A stretch of DNA of 64,000 nucleotides, taken from assembly GCF_964019625.1 (NCBI RefSeq), contig NZ_OZ026458.1, forward strand, positions 434,001-498,000. Direction: 5' to 3'. Shown here in pieces: positions 24,210-41,229 of this stretch. The notes beneath the pieces are model-generated. The model did not search any database. It was not told the DNA's origin and saw nothing but the letters and a program-made list of their open reading frames with translations. Source of the DNA: Spiroplasma endosymbiont of Diplazon laetatorius. Its GTDB lineage: Bacteria; Bacillota_I; Bacilli_A; Mycoplasmatales; Mycoplasmataceae. The translations under genes were made by a program, and so were the position numbers. The first letter of the stretch is position 1; every line of letters begins with the position of its first letter.

Positions 24210-24569
24210 ATGGGGAGTGAAAATAAAAAAGTGTGGTTATTAAACCATTGATTTAAGGGTTGAAATAATAAGAAGACAGCTTTTGCAATTCAAAGTCCTT
24301 GAAATAAGGATGGGTTAATATGAATTTATAAAAATTATTATTTATCAAGCAAATATAAAAATCGTTTTGGTATTGAAGTAAACATTGTTAATTTTAAAAC
24401 TAAAAAAACACATTATTATCAAGAAATAATTTATTCATTAAGAAAAAAGCAAGTAAATATGATTTCAGGTGAAATTTTAGCTAGTTTCTTTGAAGAATTA
24501 AATAATAAAAATTCTCAAGAATATAAAGAATTTGTAACAAAATTTATAGGAGAAAAAATTTATGATTAA
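24210..24569 (+). CDS. small protein of unknown function, first gene of element operon
   Basis: 119 residues. The first ~60 contain six Trp, four of them TGA (HWFKGWNNKKTAF, PWNKDGLIWIYKNYY), followed by a helical C-terminal half. No known domain; a replication initiator role would fit its place just before a DnaC-like ATPase, but there is no motif to support it. SD GAAGGGA directly after the palindromic box. Its stop overlaps the next start (8 nt), so the two are translationally coupled. Confidence 0.7.
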
Positions 24570-25152
24570 AACTAAATTTAATGTTGATCAAGATTTAGAT
24601 TATACAAAATTTAATCCTTTATTTAACAAAGTTAAACAAAAAGAAGGATTTAAAAATAATGGAATCTATATTCATGGCAAACCAGGAGTTGGAAAAACTA
24701 CTTTTATAAAAAAATTTGTTGAACATTCCAAAATTAATTTTGAAGTTGTTAATGTTTCTCAATGAATAAAATCTCATCAACAAGCATGAGAAAACGGATA
24801 TGAGGGAATTTATGCTCCTAGCGCTAATCGTTTAGCTCAAAAACAAATTTTAATTCTTGATGATTTAGGAAGTGAATTTATTCATAAATCTACACTTCCT
24901 TATATCTACAATTTATTAAACGAAAGATTTGAAAACAGCAAACAAGATAGCACATTAATTACAATAGTTACTTCAAATTATGATTTAGAAAATTTAGAAA
25001 AAAATTATAATACTAAATCAGATAATGTAACTTCATCAAGAATTATTTCTAGATTAAAGGGGTTAATTGATCTAAATATAGAATTTGAAGGCATTGATAA
25101 AAGATACTCCAATGAAATTGAAAATAAAAATTTTGAATATATTGATTTTTAA
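24562..25152 (+). CDS. DnaC/DnaI-like AAA+ ATPase (helicase loader type)
   Basis: 196 residues. Walker A GKPGVGKTT (about 38-46), Walker B ILILDDLGSE (about 95-104) and sensor-1 TIVTSNY (about 134-140), then Arg residues (SSRIISRL) where the Arg finger of this family lies. The LDDLG form of Walker B and the short length are typical of DnaC/DnaI/IstB-type ATPases. On this element it probably loads the replicative helicase; without an adjacent transposase an IstB role is unlikely. Confidence 0.82.
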
Positions 25153-25168
25153 TTTTCCCCAGGGAAAA
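25153..25168 (+). promoter_or_regulatory. 16-bp palindromic box, copy 2
   Basis: TTTTCCCCAGGGAAAA begins at the stop codon of the ATPase gene and ends 1 nt before the ThiF start at 25170. Here its own AGGG must act as Shine-Dalgarno, so box occupancy or a hairpin would directly block translation. Confidence 0.85.
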
Positions 25169-25169
25169 A

Positions 25170-25913
25170 ATGAATAAAATAATATTTTTAGTTGGAGTAG
25201 GGGGCACAGGTGGTCTTCTTGCTGGGAAACTAGCAAAATTTTTAACAAATGAAGATAGTTTAGTATTAATCGATGGTGACAAAGTTGAATATAAAAATGT
25301 TATAAGACAACCCTTTCAAAATCATGATGTCTATAGTTATAAAGCTGAAAGTTTAACTAGAAAAATAAACAGTATAAGTAGATTTAAAAATTGTTATTCT
25401 ATTAATAAATTTTTAAATAAAGAAAATTCATTATTTAAAATAATTAAGTCTTTTAACGCCGTTTTTAATAAGGTAATAATAATAAGTTGTGTTGATAATC
25501 ACAAAACCAGAATACTTATTGAAAAATCAACAAATATGTTTAAAAATTTATTGCTAGAAAAAGATTTTAGTTGAATTGGATATTCTAAAGCTTCAGATGT
25601 AATTTATATTGATTCAGCAAATGAAGATATATATGGCGATATTTTAATTAATGAATTTAGAAGTAATATTTATAATTTAAAAATTGAAAAAGAAACAGAA
25701 CTTAAAATATCAGAAGAAAGTTGTGAAGAGTTGATAAATGACGGAATTATTCAACAATTTTCAACAAACGATCAAGCAAGTAACTTAATTTTAAAAGTTT
25801 TATCAAATATTGATATGTATATAAAAAATAAATATCATATTAAGTTTTGAGAATTTAATTCTAAAATTGAAAAAATAAAGCAAAACAACAAAAATGGAAA
25901 AACATCAAATTAG
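25170..25913 (+). CDS. ThiF/E1-like protein (PRTRC-type)
   Basis: 247 residues. The E1/ThiF adenylation fold signature is complete in the first half: glycine loop V8GVGGTGG15, then LVLIDGDKVEYKNVIRQPF with D37, N43, R46, Q47, and the downstream CVDNHKTR (D109, N110, R114). The G-x-G-G-T-G start and N-x-x-RQ-x-F spacing fit the ThiF member of PRTRC cassettes (ParB-related, ThiF-related cassette), in which E1-like, E2-like and ParB-like genes travel together; an E2-like gene and parB-like gene follow here. C107 lies next to the DN motif; whether it is catalytic is unknown. Overlaps the next gene by 20 nt. Confidence 0.8.
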
Positions 25914-26412
25914 TGTTTTTATTAATAATTTAAAAGTTATTGATAAATGCAATATTGAAAGAATATCTTTTTTGAGAAAACACATTATTTCTAAAATTTA
26001 TTTGTTAGCATGACAAAGAGATAATTTGGTTGAAAATGTAGTGATCAGAGATGAAGTTATTTCAAATGATATAAATAGATTTCATTTATACGAAACAATA
26101 TTACTTAATATAAATCAAAATTTATCTGAACCAAATTTTATTTTTGAATCAATAAACAAAAAAGAATTTGTAACTACAAAATATATTAATAAACTTCCAA
26201 AATATCAAAAAGAATATTTATTACAAAAATTTAAAAATTCAGAAAGTATAAAAATCATTAATTTAAATAATGAATTATATTTTGAAATAATACCAATAAC
26301 TAATAAAAACCAAAATCAAGATATTTTGTTTTTAAAAGAATTAGAAGAGAAACGTAAGTTAATAAAGGATCTTATAGATGAAGCTAAACTTAAAAGAAAT
26401 AAAAGAAATTAA
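25894..26412 (+). CDS. unknown protein in the PRTRC-like cassette
   Basis: 172 residues, starting inside the ThiF gene and ending inside the next gene, so it is part of a tightly coupled operon. N-terminal half has beta/helix character; the last ~40 residues are a Lys/Glu-rich helix. No JAB/MPN metal motif, no Cys pair and no P-loop, so it is not the JAB peptidase of PRTRC systems. Not recognised. Confidence 0.7.
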
Positions 26413-26806
26413 ATTTTTAGAAATAAATCCTTTAAAAGTAAAAAATAAAAATACTTCTAATAAAAATAAATACAATAAATTTATTAAAAAAAATGAAAAC
26501 AATTTTAATGATTTAAAAATCGTTAACTCTATTAGAAAAATATCTAAAACATGATACATATATGAAAAACTCAGAGCACAAATTTGTGGTTGAGGCGAAT
26601 TAGATTTAAATTGAGTTATTGAAATTAAAAAAATTATTAATCAAAATTCTAAATTATTAAAAATTAATGTAAATGATTTTTTTAATTTTATTCAATCAAA
26701 AAAAGAAATTGAAAAAGAAACAAAATTTACAGCCATACCTGAAAAGGAAATAGTTTGTACAGAAATTACTTTTGAAAGGAATGATGATTATGAAATCCTT
26801 TTCTAA
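26378..26806 (+). CDS. unknown protein in the PRTRC-like cassette
   Basis: 142 residues, overlapping its neighbours on both sides (35 nt and 17 nt), which supports it as a real operon member. Lys/Asn-rich N-terminus, a central helical part with TGA Trp codons (KTWYIYEKLRAQICGWGELDLNW), and an acidic C-terminus. No recognisable motif. Confidence 0.65.
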
Positions 26807-27449
26807 ACTAAAATTAGAATTTGATAAAAACGATAAAGGATATTGCAAAGTACAATTGGAAAATAAAAGTGGAGTTAATAAATCTGGATGAATCAAATTT
26901 AATGATTTTTTAAATTGATTATTTATTAATGCAAAAAATAATATTGATAAAATTGGAAATATAAGTTTTTCAGAAAAACTTATTGCTATAAAATCAAGTG
27001 ATCATTCTGATTTTTATTTCTTTTATTATGAACCTTCTATAAGAGATATTTTTGCTTATAAAAAAGGTAAATATGTTCACAAAACTATATTTTTACCCCA
27101 ACTAATTGCAGAGGTTAAATTAGATAAAATTAATATTTCAAATAATTGAAATATTAGATTATTTGCCTTTAGTGGGGAATTAAGTGAAAAAACTAAATTT
27201 TTTTCAATGAAATTACCTCATTTTTATGAAACGGGAGATTTATGTTTAGGAAATTTAAATTCACTTAAAAAAATAAAAGAACTAAATGAACTTGATAATC
27301 TAATAAATTATATATTTTCTACAAAATTTAATCATGAATGAACTGAAATAAATGAAGAATTTACAAAACCAGCTCATTTCCTAAAAGGTTTAGAAGGTTT
27401 AAAACAGTACAAAAAAATTAATGAAAAAATACTTTTTAACAAAAGATAG
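26790..27449 (+). CDS. E2-like PRTRC protein B homologue
   Basis: 219 residues. Its second half matches the layout of PRTRC system protein B (prokaryotic E2-like family D): a hydrophobic strand (IRLFAFSG), the short segment MKLPHFYETGDLCLGN with Cys152 in the position where E2-like enzymes carry their active Cys, then an aromatic segment ending FSTKFNHEW. In PRTRC cassettes this protein accompanies the ThiF/E1-like protein, as here. ATG 26790 is chosen because GAAAGGA (26774-26780) is 9 nt upstream; ATG at 26781 and 26784 are too close. A ubiquitin-like conjugation role is inference. Confidence 0.7.
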
Positions 27450-30409: not shown

Positions 30410-30425
30410 TTTTCCCCAGGGAAAA
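30410..30425 (+). promoter_or_regulatory. 16-bp palindromic box, copy 5
   Basis: TTTTCCCCAGGGAAAA within ATTTTCCC-CA-GGGAAAAT; 17 nt before ATG 30443. Confidence 0.85.
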
Positions 30426-30442
30426 TAGAAAGAAAAAAATAT

Positions 30443-30955
30443 ATGAAACTAAATTTAGAATCTTTAATTAAAAAAATAGATTTAGAAAATAAAGTAAATA
30501 AAACAGATAAATTTTGAATAGAATCAGCTAAAAAAATGATAATTAATAATTTTGAAGAAAATATAAGTATTGATCAATTAAAATTAAAAATTAGCAATCT
30601 AAAAGTAAATAATGAAAATGAAATTTCTATTAAATCAAATACAATAGCTATTTTAAATAATTTAAATAAAAAATTACTTGAAAAAAATGACTTTAAAACT
30701 TTAAACAACAAATTTATTGGTAAAACAAATAGTGGAGAAAATCAAAAGTTTAATTTTGTTGATATTAAAAAAGAAAATTATATTTTAGATACTTTTTCAA
30801 CAGAAAATGAAAAAACAGAATGTAATGTTGCATTTTGTAGAAATATTTCGTCATATGTTAGAACAGACTTTACAAATAAACCCATTTTAAAAAATAGTTT
30901 AGAATTATATGTTGCTTTAGTTTTATGCAATGAACATTATAATTATTTAAAATAA
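30443..30955 (+). CDS. unknown protein, paralogue of the 29701 gene
   Basis: 170 residues, the same length as its upstream paralogue; similarity covers the first ~58 residues (LESLIKKID..., MIINNFEENISIDQLKLKISNL). The C-terminal part has CNVAFC and a final LCNEHYNYL, a possible C-C-C-H zinc site. As in the paralogue, the frame continues open past its TAA (30953-30955) for 65 more codons to 31150; that extension has no ATG before its hydrophobic part and encodes two possible membrane helices. Confidence 0.7.
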
Positions 30956-31545: not shown

Positions 31546-31818
31546 TTGATAGATAAAAAAATAGAAGATCAAAATAAAATAAGTATAGTAAATATAATAG
31601 ATTCCCATAAAGTTTCATTATTAAAAATTCAATATAAAAATTTTATCTTAAAATACTTATTTAAAAATAATGAAGCTTTTATTCCAATAAAAATTAATAT
31701 TGTAGGTAAAGTACTTACTCCAAAAATATATAAAAGTTTTATTATGCTGCTTCATTCCATATTTCAATTATATATCAAAATAAAAAATAGAAAGAAGTTG
31801 ATCCAATGACTAAACTAG
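31546..31818 (+). CDS. possible small protein upstream of topA (weak start)
   Basis: An open frame from TTG 31546 to TAG 31816-31818 (90 residues with TGA as Trp), overlapping the topA start by 13 nt. The translation looks protein-like, with a central basic/hydrophobic part (KYLFKNNEAFIPIKINIVG), but there is no ATG or Shine-Dalgarno. The rest of the 31448-31805 interval shows nothing else. Confidence 0.3.
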
Positions 31819-33751
31819 TTATATTAGAATCACCAGGTAAAATTAAAAAAGTAAGTCAATTTTTAAAAGAAATTGACAAAAATAACAATTATATTGTTAA
31901 AGCTTCAATTGGACATGTTAGAGAACTTTCAAATGAAAATGACTTTAATATGGGAATCAATCTAAAGCAAATGATGCCAATTTATAAAATTTCAAATGAT
32001 AAAAAACAAGTTGTAAATGAATTAATTGAACAAGCAAAAAATGTAAAAGAAATAATTATTGCAACAGATCCAGATAGAGAAGGAGAAGCGATTGCTTTTC
32101 ATTTATTTGAAATTTTAAAAGAATATAATAATAATTTTAAAAGAATGAGATTAAATGCCATTACAAAAGAATGTATTCAAAAAGAGTTAAATAACTTAAA
32201 TGGAATAAATCAAAGTTATGTAAACAGTGCTCTTACAAGACAAATTTTAGATAGAATGGTTGGATTTAGAATTTCTCCAATTTTGCAAAAAACTACTGGA
32301 GCTGCAAGTGCAGGAAGAGTTCAAAGTGCAGTGTTAAAAATATTGTGCAATAGACAAAAAGAAATCGAAGTTTTTGATAAAAAACAATATTTTTATATAC
32401 AAGATGAAACCATTAGAGACATTGTTTTTAAAAATTACGTTTATAATGAAAATAACAAATTAGTAATTAATAAAATTTTTGATAAGCAAAAAGCAATAGA
32501 GTTAAAGAATACTTTAACTGATAATTTTGTTGTAAAAGAGATAAAAGAAACTAAATTTGAAGAAAATAACTTTAAACCATTTTCAACAGCGGACTTATTA
32601 AAAGCAGCTAAATCTAAATTAAAGTTAAAAACTAAAGAAACTACTCAATTGGCTCAAAGTTTGTATGAAAAAGGATTAATAACTTATATTAGAACTGACT
32701 CTAATAATTTAGATCATGAAACTGAACAAAATTTAGTTAAATTTATTATTAATCATTTTGGACAAGATAAATTGGACAAACTTATTAAAACTCAAACTAA
32801 AGAAACAGATCAAGAAGGACATCCTGCAATCACACCAACCCATTTTGAATGACTTGTTGAAAATATAGATAGTCATTGTAATGATCAATTAAACGATAAA
32901 GAAAAAAATTTATACTGATTAATATGGCAAAATACTATAAATTCAATTTATCAAAAGCCTAGTGGTATTAAAAAAGAAGTTTTCTTAGAAAACAATAAAA
33001 GTATTTTTTATGCAAATTTAAAACAATATACTAGTAAAGGTTACTATGAAATTGATAAAAGTTTAGAATTAGCTAAAAAATTGAATTTAATTACTTTAAA
33101 GATGATAAATTGAATGCAAATTGTTTAGAAATTATTCAAGATTATGATAAAACTCCAAGTAAGTTAAATGAAGTTAGTTTAATTGAACAACTACAAAAAT
33201 TAGAAATTGGTAGACCCAGTACCTATAAAACAGCAATAGAAGTAAACGTTTTAAGAGGTTATGTTGAGTTGGAAAAAACTAAAGCTGAATCAATGACAGT
33301 TAATGAATTAGGTTTAAAAGTTAATAGTTTTTTAGAAAAAAACTTTAAAAGTATTATAAATCTAGATTTTACTAAAGATATGGAAAAAGATTTAGACTTA
33401 ATAGCTAATAATAAAATAGTTGATCATAAACAATACTTGAAAGACTTTTATTTAAAATTAGATAATTTATCTACTAACTATAATTTTGATGGTCTAAGGT
33501 GCTCAAAATGTCAAATAGGCTATATTTTAGATAGAGTTAGCAAAAAAGAAACAAAGTTTAAAGGTTGTTCAAATTACCCAAATTGTGATTTTATTAAGTT
33601 TAATCAACCAGATTATTCAAATAATAAGTCATGTGAAATTTGTAAAAACGGTTACATGATCGAAAGAAGTTATACTGATAAAAAAACCAAAAAAATTAAG
33701 AAATTTATGGGTTGTTCAAACTATCCAAGTTGTAAAAATACAATATTTTAA
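31806..33751 (+). pseudogene. topA: type IA DNA topoisomerase with a -1 frameshift
   Basis: About 648 residues if repaired. Seen: Toprim motifs LVILESPGK and TDPDREGEAIAFH, the active-site Tyr294 in LITYIRTDS, and at the C-terminus two four-Cys zinc ribbons (CSKCQIGY..GCSNYPNC, CEICKNGY..GCSNYPSC). The frame from 31806 runs to about 33080 and then fails; the following sequence continues in the -1 frame from the A6 run in GCT AAA AAA TTG (33073-33084), giving LAKK then IEFNYFKDDK. The intact downstream zinc ribbons suggest a recent lesion, a miscalled homopolymer, or slippage. Mobile elements often carry a topoisomerase of this type in addition to the chromosomal TopA. Confidence 0.8.
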
Positions 33752-34620: not shown

Positions 34621-34667
34621 TTTAAAATAAAATGAATTAAGAAATTCTAAAATAATAAATAATACTT

Positions 34668-34774
34668 ATGTTATACTTAAATCAAGGTAAATAGAGCACT
34701 AGCAACGCTAGGACTCTATTTTTTTGTTTAAATCAATATTTTATGTAACTAGCTATTGCTAGTTTTTATTTTTT
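34668..34774 (+). promoter_or_regulatory. repeated leader, copy A: extended -10 promoter plus tandem hairpins
   Basis: TG-T-TATACT (34669-34677) begins the unit. Hairpin 1: AAATAGAG(34689-34696) / CTCTATTT(34714-34721) with inner CTAGC(34699-34703)-AAC-GCTAG(34707-34711), then T tract. Hairpin 2: AACTAGC(34747-34753)-TATT-GCTAGTT(34758-34764), then T tract. The inner arms of the two hairpins are the same sequence, so hairpin 1's GCTAG can pair with hairpin 2's CTAGC and dissolve both terminators. It is followed by SD GAAAGGA and the 34797 gene, without the 16-bp box. Confidence 0.75.
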
Positions 34775-34796
34775 AAAATTAGAAAGGAACTAAAAT

Positions 34797-35608
34797 ATGA
34801 ATATTTATAACATGAAATCAATATTTCCAGGAGATTTTCATTTATTTGATGATCAAAAAGGCAATTACAAAAAGGGTGATTTAAAAATAAGAAAAGTAAT
34901 AAAAATTAAAAATGTTGATAATAACTGAATTATTATTGGTATTTTAAGCAATAAATATAAAAAAGAAAAAACTATAAAAATTAAAACTACTAATAAAATT
35001 TATAAAAATAGTGTTTTAGTTGATACTCATAATTTACAAATTGATGACATTTACATTGTTCATAAAAAAAGACTAAGAGAAAAAGTAGGAAATATTGATC
35101 AAAAAAACTTAGAAGAAATTAAAAAAATATCAAATAAATACTTATTTGAATGTAAAGAAAAATCTTTATTTTTAAAAATGGTTGAAAATAAAGAAATATA
35201 TAAATTAAATTTTGATGAGCAAAAATGGTGAGAAGTTGATAAACAGTTAAGTAAAAAAATAAAGAAAAATATTTTAATATTGATCAAGTAATATTGAGAA
35301 ATAATTTAATTGATAATAGACAAAAAGAATTAAATAAAGATATATTATCAGTTACAAATCAATTAATTATTTTTACTAAAAAAGCTAAAAAAACAATTGA
35401 AAAGATTAATTTGTTAAATAGTAAAAGTTTTTTAGAAAATAAAGATAAAAATTTACAAAAACTTTATTTTGAATTAGCAGACAAAAAAGAAAAATTAAAA
35501 ATAGAAGTTAGTGTTTATAAAAAACAATTAAATTTATACAAATTAGAAAAAGAAGAAAAAAATGAGTATATTAAAAAACTTAAAAACAAGATAAAAGAAT
35601 TAAAATAA
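34797..35608 (+). pseudogene. unknown protein split by a -1 frameshift
   Basis: The first frame (34797-35291, 164 residues) ends shortly after an A7 run at 35253-35259; the -1 frame is open from there to 35608 and continues naturally (KEKYFNIDQVILRNNLIDNR...), giving about 270 residues in all. The N-terminal ~90 residues are beta-rich (GDFHLFDDQ, YKKGDLKIRKVIKIKN, WIIIGIL), loosely like the MazF/PemK fold, though no family motif is secure. The C-terminal half is a long coiled coil rich in Lys/Glu/Leu. SD GAAAGGA. Controlled by leader copy A. Confidence 0.55.
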
Positions 35609-35733
35609 ATGAATGCTATTTATAAGATTCAAAACAATAAAAACATTAAAGAAAATGAATATGATTAATTTATAAAATGTTATGATTTAATTATGTTTAT
35701 TGATATTAAAATTCTAATATAAAAGGAAATAAG

Positions 35734-35934
35734 ATGGAAAAATTTGAAAAATTAGATGGTTTAAAAGTTTGTATTTATATAGAAACTGATGAAGGTAGAT
35801 TAAATTTAGCAAATAAAGATGATTTAGAAAAGTTTAAAAAATATAGTGAAAATTGAACAGATCAAGAAATAAATGATTTTATGAATAATATAAATGAGAC
35901 TTTAGATAAATTAGAAAAAGAGTTTGATAAATAG
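35734..35934 (+). CDS. small acidic unknown protein
   Basis: 66 residues, SD AAAAGGA 9 nt upstream, terminator immediately downstream, so it is probably expressed. One beta strand pair (LKVCIYIETDEGRLNLA) followed by an acidic helix (EINDFMNNINETLDKLEKEF). No known domain. Confidence 0.65.
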
Positions 35935-35956
35935 TTATTTAAATAACTATTTTTTA
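35931..35956. terminator. palindromic terminator
   Basis: Perfect 20-bp palindrome ATAGTTATTTAAATAACTAT (35931-35950) spanning the stop codon, followed by T5. Confidence 0.75.
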
Positions 35957-36088
35957 ATAAAAGTAAATAAATAATGTTATTGTTTTTATTCTTTAAAACA
36001 TTATCTTAAAAATATTAATTTAAAGAATAAATAAAAAAATAAGTATAATATAGATATTGTAAATAAAATTAAAAAGGTTGTGAAAAAA

Positions 36089-37627
36089 ATGAAATTATTA
36101 TTTGCATTTTGAATATTCTTAAATACTTTTTCTTTTTCTTTTTCAAATTATAAAATTCTTAATGAAAATCAATTAGATATTATTAACCTTAATTACCAAA
36201 ATAGTCAATATAATGAAAATATTAGTTATAAAAGTTTGATTATTCCAAATAAGCAATATATGTATTATGGAAGATTGCTCAAATATTATTATTCTAATAA
36301 TATTTTTGTATCAGATAACGAAATAAATCAAATATCTAAAAATATAATAATTAGTGGAGAAAATTCAAATATTTATAATTCTTTATTTATACAAAATTTA
36401 GTAGCAACTACAATAATGCCGAGCATATATGGATCAAGTAGTGATGCTGAATTTTTTGCAGAAAGTTTTAGTAAGTGATTGAATACCGATAATGAATTAA
36501 GAAATAAAAGTTGGGAAGTTACAAATAATTTTTATTTAAAAATTTTGCCTGAAATTATAAAAATTGGTGGTTTAGTTGAGGGCGAATATGAAAATAATCA
36601 AACAATTTCACATAAAGCCATTGAATTAATTAGTGAAAATTCAAATTTAGTAAAATATAATACTAAACTTTCACAAAAACCAAGCGATTCCCTAGAATTA
36701 AAATATAATAATTCATCTATAATTTGAACTCAAGAATATTCAAATAATGCTCTAAATTATATTAAAAATCAAGTTGAATAAGAAGCAAAAAGATCCATAA
36801 TAATTAATGACATTTCAATAATCAATATAACTTCAAAATGGATGAATGATTCTTATACAAAAGCATCAAAAAATTCAATTGATGAATTTAACGTTTTTAA
36901 TGAAAATCATTTTTTTAATTTTGATAATCTCGATAGGAAGATTGCAAATAATTCAAAAGATATAAATAGTTATAGTTCGGTTTGATTTTCACATGTATTT
37001 AGCAGCATAGAAGAAGCATATTTAAAAAGTACTCCTAATTTAAATTCTGATGGAGAAAAATGAACAAAAGAACACACCAAACAATTAAAAGAATTAACAT
37101 TGAAACTTTATAATGTTCTTTTCAATCTAATAAAAAATGAAACATGAGTTCAAAATATATTATCAGCCCTTATAATTAGTCCAGATTTTCCTTTAGTTAG
37201 TGATGATAGTTCTCTAATGGAAAACGTTATGGGTTATACAAATACATCTTATTATGTTGATAGTTCTAATAATTTTTATAGCACCGCTTATTCTTATATA
37301 GTAATTGCTGGCCCAAGTCTAACTTTTCAAAAATTTAATTCTCAATATAAAAATGCTTTTTGAAGTAGTCCAAATAAATTTAGTGTCTGAATTCATGAAA
37401 TGGGTCATGTTGTAGATGCTTTTGGAAGTAAAACTATAAATTATAGATCTATTAATTATTCAAAAAAACTTGATTATAAAAACTTGTATAAAGGACAATT
37501 TTTTGGTGATTATATAGTTTCATCAAGTGGACCAATTTTAATTTGAATTTTTGCAACTTTTTCAGGAGTTACTATAATTATAATTGTTGTTTTTTATCTT
37601 GTTAAAAAATGCAAAAAAAAGCTGTAA
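36089..37627 (+). pseudogene. secreted HExxH metalloprotease-like protein with in-frame TAA
   Basis: About 512 codons. N-terminal signal peptide (MKLLFAFWIFLNTFSFSFS), C-terminal transmembrane helix (PILIWIFATFSGVTIIIIVV) and basic tail, so a surface-anchored protein. The zinc motif is WIHEMGHVVDAFGS (H436, H440). An in-frame TAA at 36779-36781 (codon 231) splits it; the second half could restart at ATG 36842 but has no Shine-Dalgarno. The first half has SSDAEFFAESFSKWL, which looks like the third-ligand region normally found after HExxH, yet lies before it. This suggests two partial copies joined, or a permuted arrangement. Confidence 0.6.
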
Positions 37628-37741
37628 ACTTTAAAAATTTTTTTATTTAAATATGTATTATATTTTATTTAGTTCATTCATACAAAAATCTAGAAAATTA
37701 TTTAATTTATATTTATTTACTTTTAATCATTATTATGTATT

Positions 37742-37850
37742 ATGTTATACTTAAATCAAGGTAAATAGAGCACTAGCAACGCTAGGACTCTATTTTTTTG
37801 TTTAAATCAATATTTTATGTAACTAGCAGCTGCTAGTCTTTTTTATTTAT
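37742..37850 (+). promoter_or_regulatory. repeated leader, copy B
   Basis: TG-T-TATACT (37743-37751), hairpin 1 identical to copy A, hairpin 2 with the same arms but a different loop (ACTAGC-AGCT-GCTAGT), then T tract. Followed by palindromic box copy 6 and SD GAAAGGA. Confidence 0.75.
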
Positions 37851-37860
37851 CATTATTAAA

Positions 37861-37876
37861 TTTTCCCCAGGGAAAA
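37861..37876 (+). promoter_or_regulatory. 16-bp palindromic box, copy 6
   Basis: TTTTCCCCAGGGAAAA inside ATTTTCCC-CA-GGGAAAAT, downstream of leader B and 19 nt before ATG 37896. Confidence 0.85.
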
Positions 37877-37895
37877 TAGAAAGGAAATTTTAAAA

Positions 37896-38223
37896 ATGAC
37901 ATTAAAAAAATGCTTAATTATTTAGAAAATGAATTATCAGCTAATTTTTTAGCGGACCATTATCAAGATAATGTAATAAAAAAGAAATAGTTTGTAAAAA
38001 TGTATATTTTATAAATAAAAATAAATTAATATTAAAAGCAGAACCATTATATATACATGAACCTTTTACAATGTTAAATGATTGAATTCCTTTAGATGAT
38101 AAGACTAGAGAATATAAATATGATAAAAAATTTTTATGTGATTTTAAAATTTTAAAATTAAAACCTAATAAAAAAATACATATTAAAGAATCAGTTATGA
38201 ATATATACTTATTTACAAAATAA
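37896..38223 (+). pseudogene. small protein needing two -1 frameshifts at A-tracts
   Basis: ATG follows leader B, box 6 and SD GAAAGGA, but the frame stops after nine codons. A -1 shift at TTA AAA AAA (slippery A AAA AAA) opens a frame to TAG; a second -1 shift at ATA AAA AAG (slippery A AAA AAG) opens the last frame to TAA 38221-38223. The composite is about 109 residues with a plausible beta-rich C-terminal part (LYIHEPFTMLNDWIPLDDK). Two lesions of the same kind in 110 codons are either decay by A-tract shortening or reading by slippage. Family unknown. Confidence 0.5.
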
Positions 38224-38576
38224 ATCCAATTTCTAATAAATAACTTTTTAGATTATCAATATTTCCAAGTATAATTCTTTGATTTCTATAAAAAAGTGCT
38301 TAATTTCTTGTTTTTAGATTATTTTTTACATTATTTTGAGTGTAAATAAATCCAAAAATATTATTTTTTGATGTTTTTTAACTATTTCAACTAATTTAGT
38401 ATATGTGTTTTGAACATAAGTGCAGGATTTTTTTCTTGTGTGATATTTTTTTTAAAGAATGATTAGTTTTTTATTTCTTGCAAATTCGTATGAAAATTTT
38501 ATTTTTGAAAAAATAGTAATATAATAAAAAAATAAGGTTAGTAGGGTGGGCAAGTTGAAAGAAAGGAAATTTAAAT
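38224..38576. other. non-coding interval with a faint minus-strand coding trace
   Basis: 353 nt. No plus-strand gene. On the minus strand, 38430 to 38213 reads as protein-like fragments (YTKLVEIVKKHQK, then LGNIDNLKSYLLEIGF) only if a frameshift and a TAA are bridged, so it may be a relic. Near 38541 a G-rich patch (GTAGGGTGGGCAAG) precedes the Shine-Dalgarno of the next gene. Confidence 0.35.
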
Positions 38577-39368
38577 ATGGTCAAATTATTAAGTTTAATA
38601 GGCTCAATTAGTTTAAGCACTAGTGGTGTAACACCATTAGTTGAAATTTCAAAAAATTTAGTTACAATAGAAAAAAGTAAATCAATTAATTTAAATATTG
38701 TTGATGGTAATTATTATATTTTTAATACATTTCCATATTATTTTGTAGATTATAATACATGAGCAGTTGCACCTGCTTTTATAACAGGACAAGCAGCAAA
38801 TGCAATCATTAAAGCTGGGGTGAGTGGAGTAAATCCATATGATTTTGAACTAGTAAGTTCTTATAATATTACTGCAGATAGAGAATTAAATGAAGATGAT
38901 TTGTTGGGAAGAACAGGATCTGGTTCAATTCTTGTTGAATCAATTTTAAAACCAACCGATGCCGGAGAAGAAAAAGGATTGTATGGAGAAATGAAAATCT
39001 ATACTGAACTTAATTATGATTCATTAGATTTGTCAATATTAAATGGCCAAATAACACCAGGTTATGTTTCGGGTGTCAATGAAATTGAAAAAATTTCTAT
39101 TTATGTTCACTCAGACATTTTTGAATTTTTTCTTAATTTTTATGAATATCCAACTTTCCAACACGTAAATTCTGTTGAAACTTCAAAATTCTTATTTAAA
39201 AGTGGAACTACTGACTTATTTGGTCAAGAAGATTTAAATGCAATGAAAAATGGAGAAGAAGTTTTGTTGGATTTTTGACTAACACCAACTGTTGAGGGTA
39301 AAGAGAGAGGAATTTATAATAAAGCAAAAATGACTCTTAAATATGTTAAAAATGATTTAAATAATTAA
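38577..39368 (+). CDS. secreted protein of unknown function
   Basis: 263 residues. N-terminal signal (MVKLLSLIGSISLSTSG) very like those of the lipoproteins at 13223 and 15069 but without a lipobox Cys, so it is either released or held by its uncleaved signal. The mature part is acidic, beta-rich and without Cys; no family recognised. SD GAAAGGAAA. Intact, unlike its neighbours, and therefore a candidate surface-active cargo product. Confidence 0.75.
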
Positions 39369-39480
39369 TTAAAATTTATATTTTTTAAAATAGATACTCT
39401 ATATTATTTTCAATGCTATAAATATTTTAAAAATAATATAGACAAAAAAATAAAGACTATGATATAGAAATGTAATTTTA

Positions 39481-39588
39481 ATGTTATACTTAAATTAAGG
39501 TAAATAGAGCACTAGCAACGCTAGGGCTCTATTTTTTTGTTTAAATCAATATTTTTTGTAACTAGCAATAGCTAGTTTTTTATTTATT
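39481..39588 (+). promoter_or_regulatory. repeated leader, copy C
   Basis: TG-T-TATACT (39482-39490). Hairpin 1 differs from A and B by one base (GGGCTC instead of GGACTC), which turns a mismatch in the internal loop into a C-G pair. Hairpin 2 is ACTAGC-AATA-GCTAGT: arms conserved, loop changed. Leads into the inverted box and the relaxase gene. Confidence 0.75.
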
Positions 39589-39597
39589 CTTATTTAA

Positions 39598-39613
39598 TTT
39601 TCCCTGGGGAAAA
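39598..39613 (-). promoter_or_regulatory. 16-bp palindromic box, copy 7 (inverted)
   Basis: TTTTCCCTGGGGAAAA, the exact reverse complement of the consensus box, 14 nt before the relaxase ATG. Its presence in the opposite orientation argues for recognition as double-stranded DNA. Confidence 0.85.
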
Positions 39614-39627
39614 TAGAAAGGAAATAT

Positions 39628-41229
39628 ATGAAAAAAGCACCTGGTGTTATTTTTAAGACTTTAAATTTTAATCAACCAATTGATCCAGTAACAAAAGAAG
39701 TAAGAAATAAGAGTAAGAAATCTAGAGATAATTACTATAAATCTGGTGACTATTTAAACTATATTTCTAGACCTGATGCTGTTTTTAATCTAGATATAGA
39801 TGATGAACAAGTAAAACTATTAAATACTTTAAGAACTGGATCAAAAGAAGAAAAAGTTAAATATAATAAAATGCTTGAAGAAATAAACAAAAACTTTAAA
39901 AGTACAGGAATTTATTCAAAAAATGGATTAATGAGTATAGAAGAAGTAAAAGAATTAAAAAAAGATATGAAAAACTTAGATGATAAACAAGTTTTTTGAG
40001 ATACTATTATCTCTTTTTCAGATGATTTTATTAAAGAAAATAATCTTTATACACCTGAAAAAGTTCAAAAAGCACTAAATGTTGAACTTAAAAGTTTTTT
40101 TAGTGATAATGGTATGGACTTTGAAAAAGTAAACTGATTTTTTGCAATGCATACAAATACCGACAATAATCATATTCATTTGGGTTTTTTTGAAAAAGAA
40201 TCTACTAGCTATGAATATGTTTTAGACAGTAATAAAGATAAGGTTTTAAATAAGTATGGAAAACCTAAAAGAAGAAGGGTTTGAAAACAAAATGGTATGC
40301 TTTATTCTAAAACTGAATTTAGAGCTGGACTAGATATAAATATCAGAAATCAACAAAAAGACAATTTTAAATTTTTAGAAAGTCAGCGTAATTTAAGAGA
40401 TAGATTTGAAATATCATGAAATCAATTTTCTAACACTATAAATACTTCATGAAAAGATGCAAAACAAATTTATGTTGATATTAATAAAAGCAAGGTTAAT
40501 TTAATTGATAAAATTGAATTATTTTCTAATCAATTAAAACAAAAATTAAAGCTAAATTTTGGAAGTTTTAAAGATATTCCTTTAAAGAAAATTACTTATG
40601 GATCTAAATTTATAAGTGATCTAGATAGAAAAAAATTAGATGAAATTACTTTAGATTTTATTAACAGTGATATTAACTTAAAAAAAGAATATGACATTTT
40701 TATTGAAGAAAATAACAAAAAAGCAGAAGAGTTTTGTCAAATTTATTCAAACTATGAATTAGAAAATGTTGATCTAGAAATTGAAGAAAAAAACTTTATT
40801 TTAACTACACAAGATTTATTAAAAGATGAAAAAGATTGAAATTTAAAAGATCCAATTGAAAAAATTAAATATAGAAAACTTAAATATAGAAATGAACATA
40901 TAAAATCATTAAATGCTCAAGGTTATTTTCAAGGTATTTTACCTGCTTTTGGAAATAAAATATTAAAAAAAATTATTTGAAATTGAAAAAAAGAAAAATA
41001 TAAGTCTAAAAGAAGTTATGTTGGAAGTAATTTATTTAATCCAAATGGGATAAGTAACAACAAAAAATACTTTTCTTCTCTTTTATATATGCCCAAAAAC
41101 TTATTTCAAATGATTCAAAAAGAGAAAAAAAAGGCAAGACAATCTGCTATGAGTATTATAAAAGATGAAACAAAACAGAGAAATAGATTAATTAAGGAAA
41201 GAAGGTTTTATAATGGAATTGATTATTAA
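39628..41229 (+). CDS. MobL/MobP-type relaxase
   Basis: 533 residues, uninterrupted. The relaxase metal motif is clear: H175-TNTDNN-H182-I-H184 in WFFAMHTNTDNNHIHLGF. The catalytic Tyr is probably among those of the N-terminal NYYKSGDYLNYI (about 36-47). The N-terminal ~270 residues form the nicking domain; the rest is a basic helical region. It would nick the element's oriT and pilot the strand during transfer. The gene tolerates an A8 run without a frame change. The next gene overlaps it by 17 nt. Strong SD GAAAGGA after leader C and box 7. Confidence 0.85.

Follow-up and report, generated by a model that had tools for sequence, protein, structure and literature searches.

The window, a stretch of 64,000 nt (positions 434,001 to 498,000 of contig NZ_OZ026458.1), lies in the 979-kb genome of the Spiroplasma endosymbiont of Diplazon laetatorius (G000 in our genome set; genetic code 4), a member of a Spiroplasma genus. 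It contains three repeat units of ~131 nt at 34651-34781 (copy A), 37725-37855 (copy B) and 39464-39594 (copy C); copies B and C are 89% and 82% identical to copy A. The order of elements is the same in each unit: the extended -10 promoter element TGTTATACT, a spacer of ~7 nt, AAGGTAAATAGAGCACTAGCAACGCTAGGACTCTATTTTTTT (hairpin 1, H1, with U7), a linker and ACTAGCnnnnGCTAGTTTTTTATTT (hairpin 2, H2, with a U-tract). H1 is formed by strands a and b, H2 by strands c and d, and T1 and T2 denote the terminators predicted at H1 and H2. The features are listed below; energies and z values refer to the pairing of strand a with strand d (a·d).

34669..34677, + strand: copy A, extended -10 promoter element, at the same spacing to strand a in nearly all copies
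34684..34706, + strand: copy A, strand a (predicted RNA 5′ end, 5′ arm and loop of H1; alternative partner of d); a·d -16.4 kcal/mol, z -2.4
34689..34725, + strand: copy A, H1 or predicted terminator T1 (a·b) with U7
34747..34774, + strand: copy A, H2 or predicted terminator T2 (c·d) and tail; the 3′ half is strand d
34783..34788, + strand: copy A, Shine-Dalgarno (SD) sequence AAAGGA
34797-35291, + strand: copy A, downstream CDS with PemK-like domain, 164 aa vs 290 aa in the homologue of genome G185
37743..37751, + strand: copy B, extended -10 promoter element
37758..37780, + strand: copy B, strand a; a·d -19.1 kcal/mol, z -3.3
37763..37799, + strand: copy B, H1 or predicted T1 with U7
37821..37851, + strand: copy B, H2 or predicted T2 and strand d, ending in TATTTATC
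37861..37876, + strand: copy B, third palindrome (H3) TTTTCCCCAGGGAAAA, adjoining the SD; the gene after it is broken
39482..39490, + strand: copy C, extended -10 promoter element
39497..39519, + strand: copy C, strand a; a·d -17.3 kcal/mol, z -3.6
39502..39538, + strand: copy C, H1 or predicted T1 with U7
39560..39588, + strand: copy C, H2 or predicted T2 and strand d
39598..39613, + strand: copy C, H3 TTTTCCCTGGGGAAAA, the reverse complement of H3 of copy B
39617-39622, + strand: copy C, SD
39628..41229, + strand: copy C, downstream relaxase of 533 aa (MobL/MobP2 family), with 91% identity to that of G185

The hairpins themselves are at 34689-34721, 37763-37795 and 39502-39534 (H1, with T7 directly 3′ each time) and at 34747-34764, 37822-37837 and 39560-39577 (H2, with a T-rich tract directly 3′). 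The whole leader measures ~150 bases, ~90 nt of which are switching helices, and its 3′ end lies 22-50 nt ahead of the start codon. The original prediction of three leaders, each with an extended -10 promoter and two hairpins followed by U-tracts, was thus correct in place and content; the H2 loops indeed differ in the three copies (TATT, AGCT and AATA), and an A-to-G change in copy C creates a C-G pair in H1. Scanning 28-47.7 kb of the window for terminators gave 13 sites vs 1.4 ± 1.3 in dinucleotide shuffles, and 9 of the 13 are H1 or H2 of the three units, if palindromic minus-strand matches are counted. A promoter followed by a hairpin and U-tract ahead of the first gene, at a frequency above chance, is what an attenuator should look like, and the predicted attenuator-like geometry is therefore borne out at the level of sequence. 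The palindrome TTTTCCC(CA/TG)GGGAAAA (H3) follows H2 in copies B and C. It also occurs alone (TTTTCCCCAGGGAAAATAGAAAG, 30413-30428), without H1 and H2, ahead of an open reading frame at 30443-30955, which argues that H3 is a separable module, either an operator or an SD-proximal hairpin.

Each unit had been supposed to stand before a gene with a strong SD. The SD is present in all three copies, but only copy C is followed by an intact gene; the frame downstream of copy B ends after nine codons. The topoisomerase I gene of the same element is split into two overlapping frames (31806-33751), and a homologue search detected no VirB4 in G000. Judged by its gene content, the element of the window is decayed and its leader copies are partly decayed, a point that the prediction had missed. 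Two other gene groups in the window should be mentioned. At 36080-37627, two adjacent open frames with a stop codon between them make up one secreted protein with a HEMGH motif (zinc-protease-like), and at 24562-27449 consecutive genes next to ParB encode an AAA ATPase, a ThiF-like (E1) protein and a protein with a weak Prok-E2_D match, perhaps a module of the mobile element with a ubiquitin-like or defence role.

DNA and covariance searches, the latter proposed along with the prediction, revealed ~40 copies of the leader. They are clustered and come from 11 of the 20 genomes belonging to this Spiroplasma genus, two more full copies elsewhere in the genome of the window being among them; a further 40 genomes of the family, from 11 other genera, were searched and had none. 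A pattern scan of a genome contig collection that apparently lacks relatives gave three matches, in unrelated species, and none in viral contigs. The richest locus is in G185, where ~23 kb of a seemingly intact conjugative element carry ten copies. The element encodes a topoisomerase, a MobL relaxase, a type IV coupling protein (T4CP, PF02534), VirB4 (PF19044) and also a protein of 290 aa that matches PemK weakly, below the cutoff. The units relaxase-83aa-T4CP-193aa, VirB4-203aa and 245aa-234aa, among others, are each headed by a leader that lies 24-50 nt ahead of the start codon, so that nearly every transfer operon of the element starts with the same leader. Within one element, the leader precedes the operons for relaxase, coupling protein and VirB4, as expected of the leader of a conjugation regulon. 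One copy in G195 precedes an ssb-like gene. The copies have been duplicated within each element. The G185 element also holds a reverse transcriptase gene (588 aa, L063:9122-10888), probably part of a group II intron.

A structure alignment of 31 copies was used to ask which folds are conserved. In the H1+H2 fold, 88% of the cells are paired, double changes included, and the full H1 stem covaries in the relatives (for example GATTG/CAATC in G188 and AATAAAG/CTTTATT in G184); the variation does follow RNA structure, as had been claimed. The predicted strand exchange was another one, between the 3′ arm of H1 and the 5′ arm of H2 (b·c). This pairing consists of just an invariant CTAG/CTAG and shows no covariation beyond shuffles. 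The RNAalifold consensus is not H1+H2 but a pairing of columns 4-24 with 89-111, which is that of strand a (RNA 5′ end, 5′ arm and loop of H1) with strand d (H2 loop, 3′ arm, U-tract and the following TATTTAYC) over ~20 bp. This outer pairing, which the prediction had overlooked, carries the covariation. In the a·d fold, 92.1% of the cells are paired vs 88.0% in shuffles, with 44 double-change cells vs 17.3 ± 3.6 (none of 500 shuffles reached as many) and a covariation score of 0.222 vs 0.143 ± 0.009, far above slid controls. Variants occur in the stem (GGTAAATA/TATTTAYC, GCAAATA/TATTTGC, GGTTGA/TCAATC) as well as in the part of a that forms the loop of H1 (CAGC/GCTG, CGATA/TATTG, TGGAA/TTCCA, TTGTA/TACAA, GGTACA/TGTACT). 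A C/A mismatch in the H1 stem (alignment A1, columns 15 and 35) is kept in most copies, with 25 of 30 not paired at this position; it may be a protein-binding or tuning position.

Since shuffles across related rows do not give a strict probability, three further controls were added. In divergent lineages, a·d in cis has ~ -17 to -27 kcal/mol vs -11 to -14 across genomes, and swapping d between genomes abolishes the duplex, for example from -25 to -13 (G182), -25 to -14 (G195) and -24 to -13 kcal/mol (G196). A divergent copy in G185 pairs with its own partner at -26.9 and with those of its neighbours at -13.5; as it fits only itself, the pairing is in cis. Compared with dinucleotide shuffles of d, a·d reaches z -3 to -6.5 in most intact copies. 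Finally, the long a·d hairpin (S2) is the more stable fold, relative to the two-terminator fold (S1), in most copies with intact genes: the median of S2-S1 is -4.2 kcal/mol at intact vs +2.4 at broken genes (Mann-Whitney p 0.003, with intact and broken labels given by hand and copies within one genome being non-independent). A conserved alternative fold that would exclude the terminators, the other hallmark of an attenuator, is therefore predicted. The copies of the window show either little difference between S1 and S2 or a more stable S1, and their masking of the SD is weak (P unpaired 0.23 to 0.35 and 0.48 to 0.63 when a takes d). For these reasons, the window is a poor test site and copies of the G185 type are better.

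VirB4 and relaxase homologues were then traced through the family, and the elements that carry them were searched for repeats ahead of genes. Other genera have a leader of the same plan in unrelated sequence, in which the 5′-terminal strand is part of a promoter-proximal terminator and is complementary to a downstream strand that masks the SD; both this recurrence and SD masking as a second lock had escaped the prediction. In G154 there are four clear copies plus a degenerate fifth, one of them ahead of the relaxase, with the order TGTTATACT...GATAAGCAAAGCATTTAAACAGACAAAGTCTCTGTTTTGGCTTTGTTTTTTT followed by GTTTAAATGCTACTTATC or GTTTAAATGCTTTCTTGTC. Here GATAAG...GCATTTAAAC (a) pairs with GTTTAAATGC...CTTATC (d), and GATAAGGAG at the SD is a second partner of d. 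In G208, three copies have strand a in common but each has a different strand d, and all three versions of d are complementary to a. In both genomes a·d is significant (z -3.3 to -7.2). When d is free and then taken by a, the probability that the SD is unpaired rises from 0.02 to 0.80, 0.04 to 0.57 and 0.19 to 0.42 in G208 and from 0.01 to 0.88 and 0.30 to 0.72 in two copies of G154, the two others being open already; the median at ordinary start sites in the window is 0.59 (n = 19). As a control, 78 ordinary terminators in the same loci gave a mean z of 0.07 (sd 1.2), and the three with z ≤ -3 turned out to be further leaders (G154 L178:10368, the VirB4 gene of G162, and G179 L179:2561). All three are in conjugative-element regions directly before an SD and a reading frame, with a -10 just upstream, a T1 and an a·d of -13 to -23 kcal/mol, and a unmasks the SD from 0.15 to 0.74, 0.18 to 0.90 and 0.34 to 0.78. 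The same architecture in unrelated sequence points to a common RNA switch that controls conjugation.

How would such a switch work? On balance, we favor the idea that the unit is a double-locked attenuator which the transfer operons in an integrative conjugative element have in common. The starting points are features read directly from the genomes: the anatomy, covariation of a·b and a·d, position at conjugation operons and recurrence in unrelated sequence. Termination at T1 and T2, the order of folding and a trigger that acts on strand a are what we infer from them. The RNA would begin with strand a, which by default would pair with b (T1), so that transcription would stop ~45 nt after its start. 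Polymerases slipping past T1 would meet a second lock built on strand d: in this genus c·d, the second terminator T2, and in other genera and some copies here an SD covered by d. Because strand a is common to both locks, a transcript that has merely leaked past T1 would stay locked. If a were kept out of T1 during synthesis of the leader, it would pair with d (~20 bp), b would be left to the 5′ arm of H2, the terminators or the SD mask would be undone and the operon would be expressed. Strand d lies downstream of T1 and is made after it; a·d can therefore not be the antiterminator of T1, and another factor, presumably a protein, an RNA or a modified polymerase acting on strand a, must act first. 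We found no factor that keeps strand a out of T1, which is the main gap in the model. Only 19-58 nt, largely taken up by palindrome and SD, separate T2 from the start codon, too little space for another promoter. A promoter inside the linker was also considered and is unlikely, the linker being nearly deleted in two G185 copies (L063:15855 and 16613) whose genes are intact. It is tempting to speculate, although we regard this wider claim as possible rather than probable, that the architecture is family-wide and independent of sequence in conjugative elements of the Spiroplasmataceae: the 5′ terminus of each transfer mRNA would be the key strand common to a promoter-proximal terminator and a second lock (terminator or masked SD), transcription and translation would be gated together with leak-through transcripts remaining silent, and one element-encoded trigger, possibly a trans RNA with strand d, would open all operons at once.

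The leader appears to work like an attenuator, and by the tests made it is not of the leader-peptide or conAn type, nor a member of an Rfam family. Leaders of this and other genera had no match at gathering score to a covariance model of Rfam 15, and the expectation that no named riboswitch has this form held at gathering and permissive thresholds; a snoU6-53 match at the permissive threshold was dismissed, being below the gathering score and in an A+T-rich coding region. There is no conserved ATG frame in the leader, and scattered TTG/GTG frames are not conserved across lineages; terminators of the conAn type inside operons are absent from the G185 transfer region. Both findings argue against ribosome-mediated attenuation and a processive system of the conAn type. 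Among leader-peptide attenuators known from mobile elements of Gram-positive bacteria, erm(K), which has two leader terminators, and mef(E)/mel, together with the trp-type attenuators (1:2/2:3/3:4), resemble the leader in having one or more terminators between promoter and first gene and mutually exclusive pairings, and attenuators of the leader-peptide class are sometimes coupled to SD masking (erm(C)-type), as predicted here. In contrast to them, the present leader lacks a leader peptide and its 5′ terminus has its alternative partner in the segment that precedes the SD (1:4); moreover, many operons carry leaders of a single type. For erm(K), regulation by transcriptional attenuation has been described (PMC4335068). 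The conAn (pLS20) and canT (Tn916) systems also regulate conjugation genes through termination and read-through in which an RNA takes part (PMC8955417, PMC11658703), but these are single loci that act processively over terminators inside long operons, whereas here each operon has a short leader. Like the leader, put RNA (phage HK022) and EAR have a structured RNA or two short hairpins close to the promoter; the hairpins of put and EAR are not themselves terminators, unlike the predicted T1 and T2. Transcriptional riboswitches with tandem expression platforms are likewise bistable, with terminator and antiterminator folds, but the leader has no separate ligand-binding domain and consists entirely of its ~90 nt of switching helices.

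Could the long hairpin instead bind polymerase and make it terminator-resistant, as a loading site for processive antitermination like put, EAR, conAn2 or canT? RNA antiterminators are used by conjugation operons of Gram-positive plasmids and of Tn916 (PMC8955417, PMC11658703), and the leader, which opens the operons, has a conserved long-hairpin fold. However, a·d is complete only after T2 and could not rescue T1 or T2 in cis, every operon has its own promoter and leader rather than being part of one long operon, and in the relaxase/VirB4 stretch of G185 (L064) terminator-like sites are found in leaders or between genes but not inside operons. Between genera it is the architecture that is conserved and not the sequence, and we consider this explanation unlikely. 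Only a shade less likely is that T1 and T2 release RNAs of 45-100 nt which pair with d or the SD of other leaders and thereby co-ordinate them. Within a genome, a of one copy indeed pairs with d of others almost as strongly as with its own d, each element carries many copies, and a working T1 should yield short RNAs; on the other hand, the divergent G185 copy complements only itself, and strand a would be closed in its own hairpin within the short RNA.

The greater stability of S2 at most intact genes and its start at the predicted 5′ end would also fit a hairpin that stabilizes the mRNA or is cut by RNase III, with H1 and H2 being incidental. This is improbable to us, for protection would not need the perfect complementarity of H1, with its U-tract and compensatory changes; in other genera, moreover, d masks the SD specifically. 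We give least credit, and very little, to ordinary promoter-plus-terminator repeats that spread by duplication without any switch: the copies are clearly duplicated within each element, but a·d covaries, is lost at broken genes and recurs in unrelated sequences, and a promoter whose only gene lies behind a terminator requires a means of relief. The double-locked attenuator thus remains the preferred reading; the original interpretation as an attenuator is supported in part, with a·d in place of b·c.

To our knowledge, little is known about how conjugation is switched on in mollicutes, and a literature search retrieved no leader or antitermination control of mollicute conjugative elements. The leader offers a concrete control point common to all transfer operons, together with a covariance model that finds it. 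If the model is correct, ~90 nt would suffice for a leak-proof RNA gate, without leader peptide or separate aptamer, and this gate has apparently been reached in several unrelated sequences.

Looser relatives, for which we do not claim the same switch, were seen in three more genomes. In G171, an SD hairpin without strand exchange occurs eight times: eight genes of a VirB4 element (L186, G171:C1:485000-503000) have a common leader in which a CTTTCG...CGAAAGGAG hairpin covers the SD, apparently a translation-only version. Eight leaders in G174 (L182/L183) and G164 (L191) have the form TATAAT...GATGACCAA(A)TGACACATG..hairpin..CATGTGTTTTTTAT(A)TTGGTA(T/A)ATGACA; T1 follows the promoter immediately, and an outer helix and a recurring ATGACA are present. 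The outer helix is short, nested with T1 and not competing with it, and is weakly above shuffles in G164 and not in G174. The same G174 element also contains the Rfam RNA DUF3800-I (47.2 bits, L183:5143-5254).
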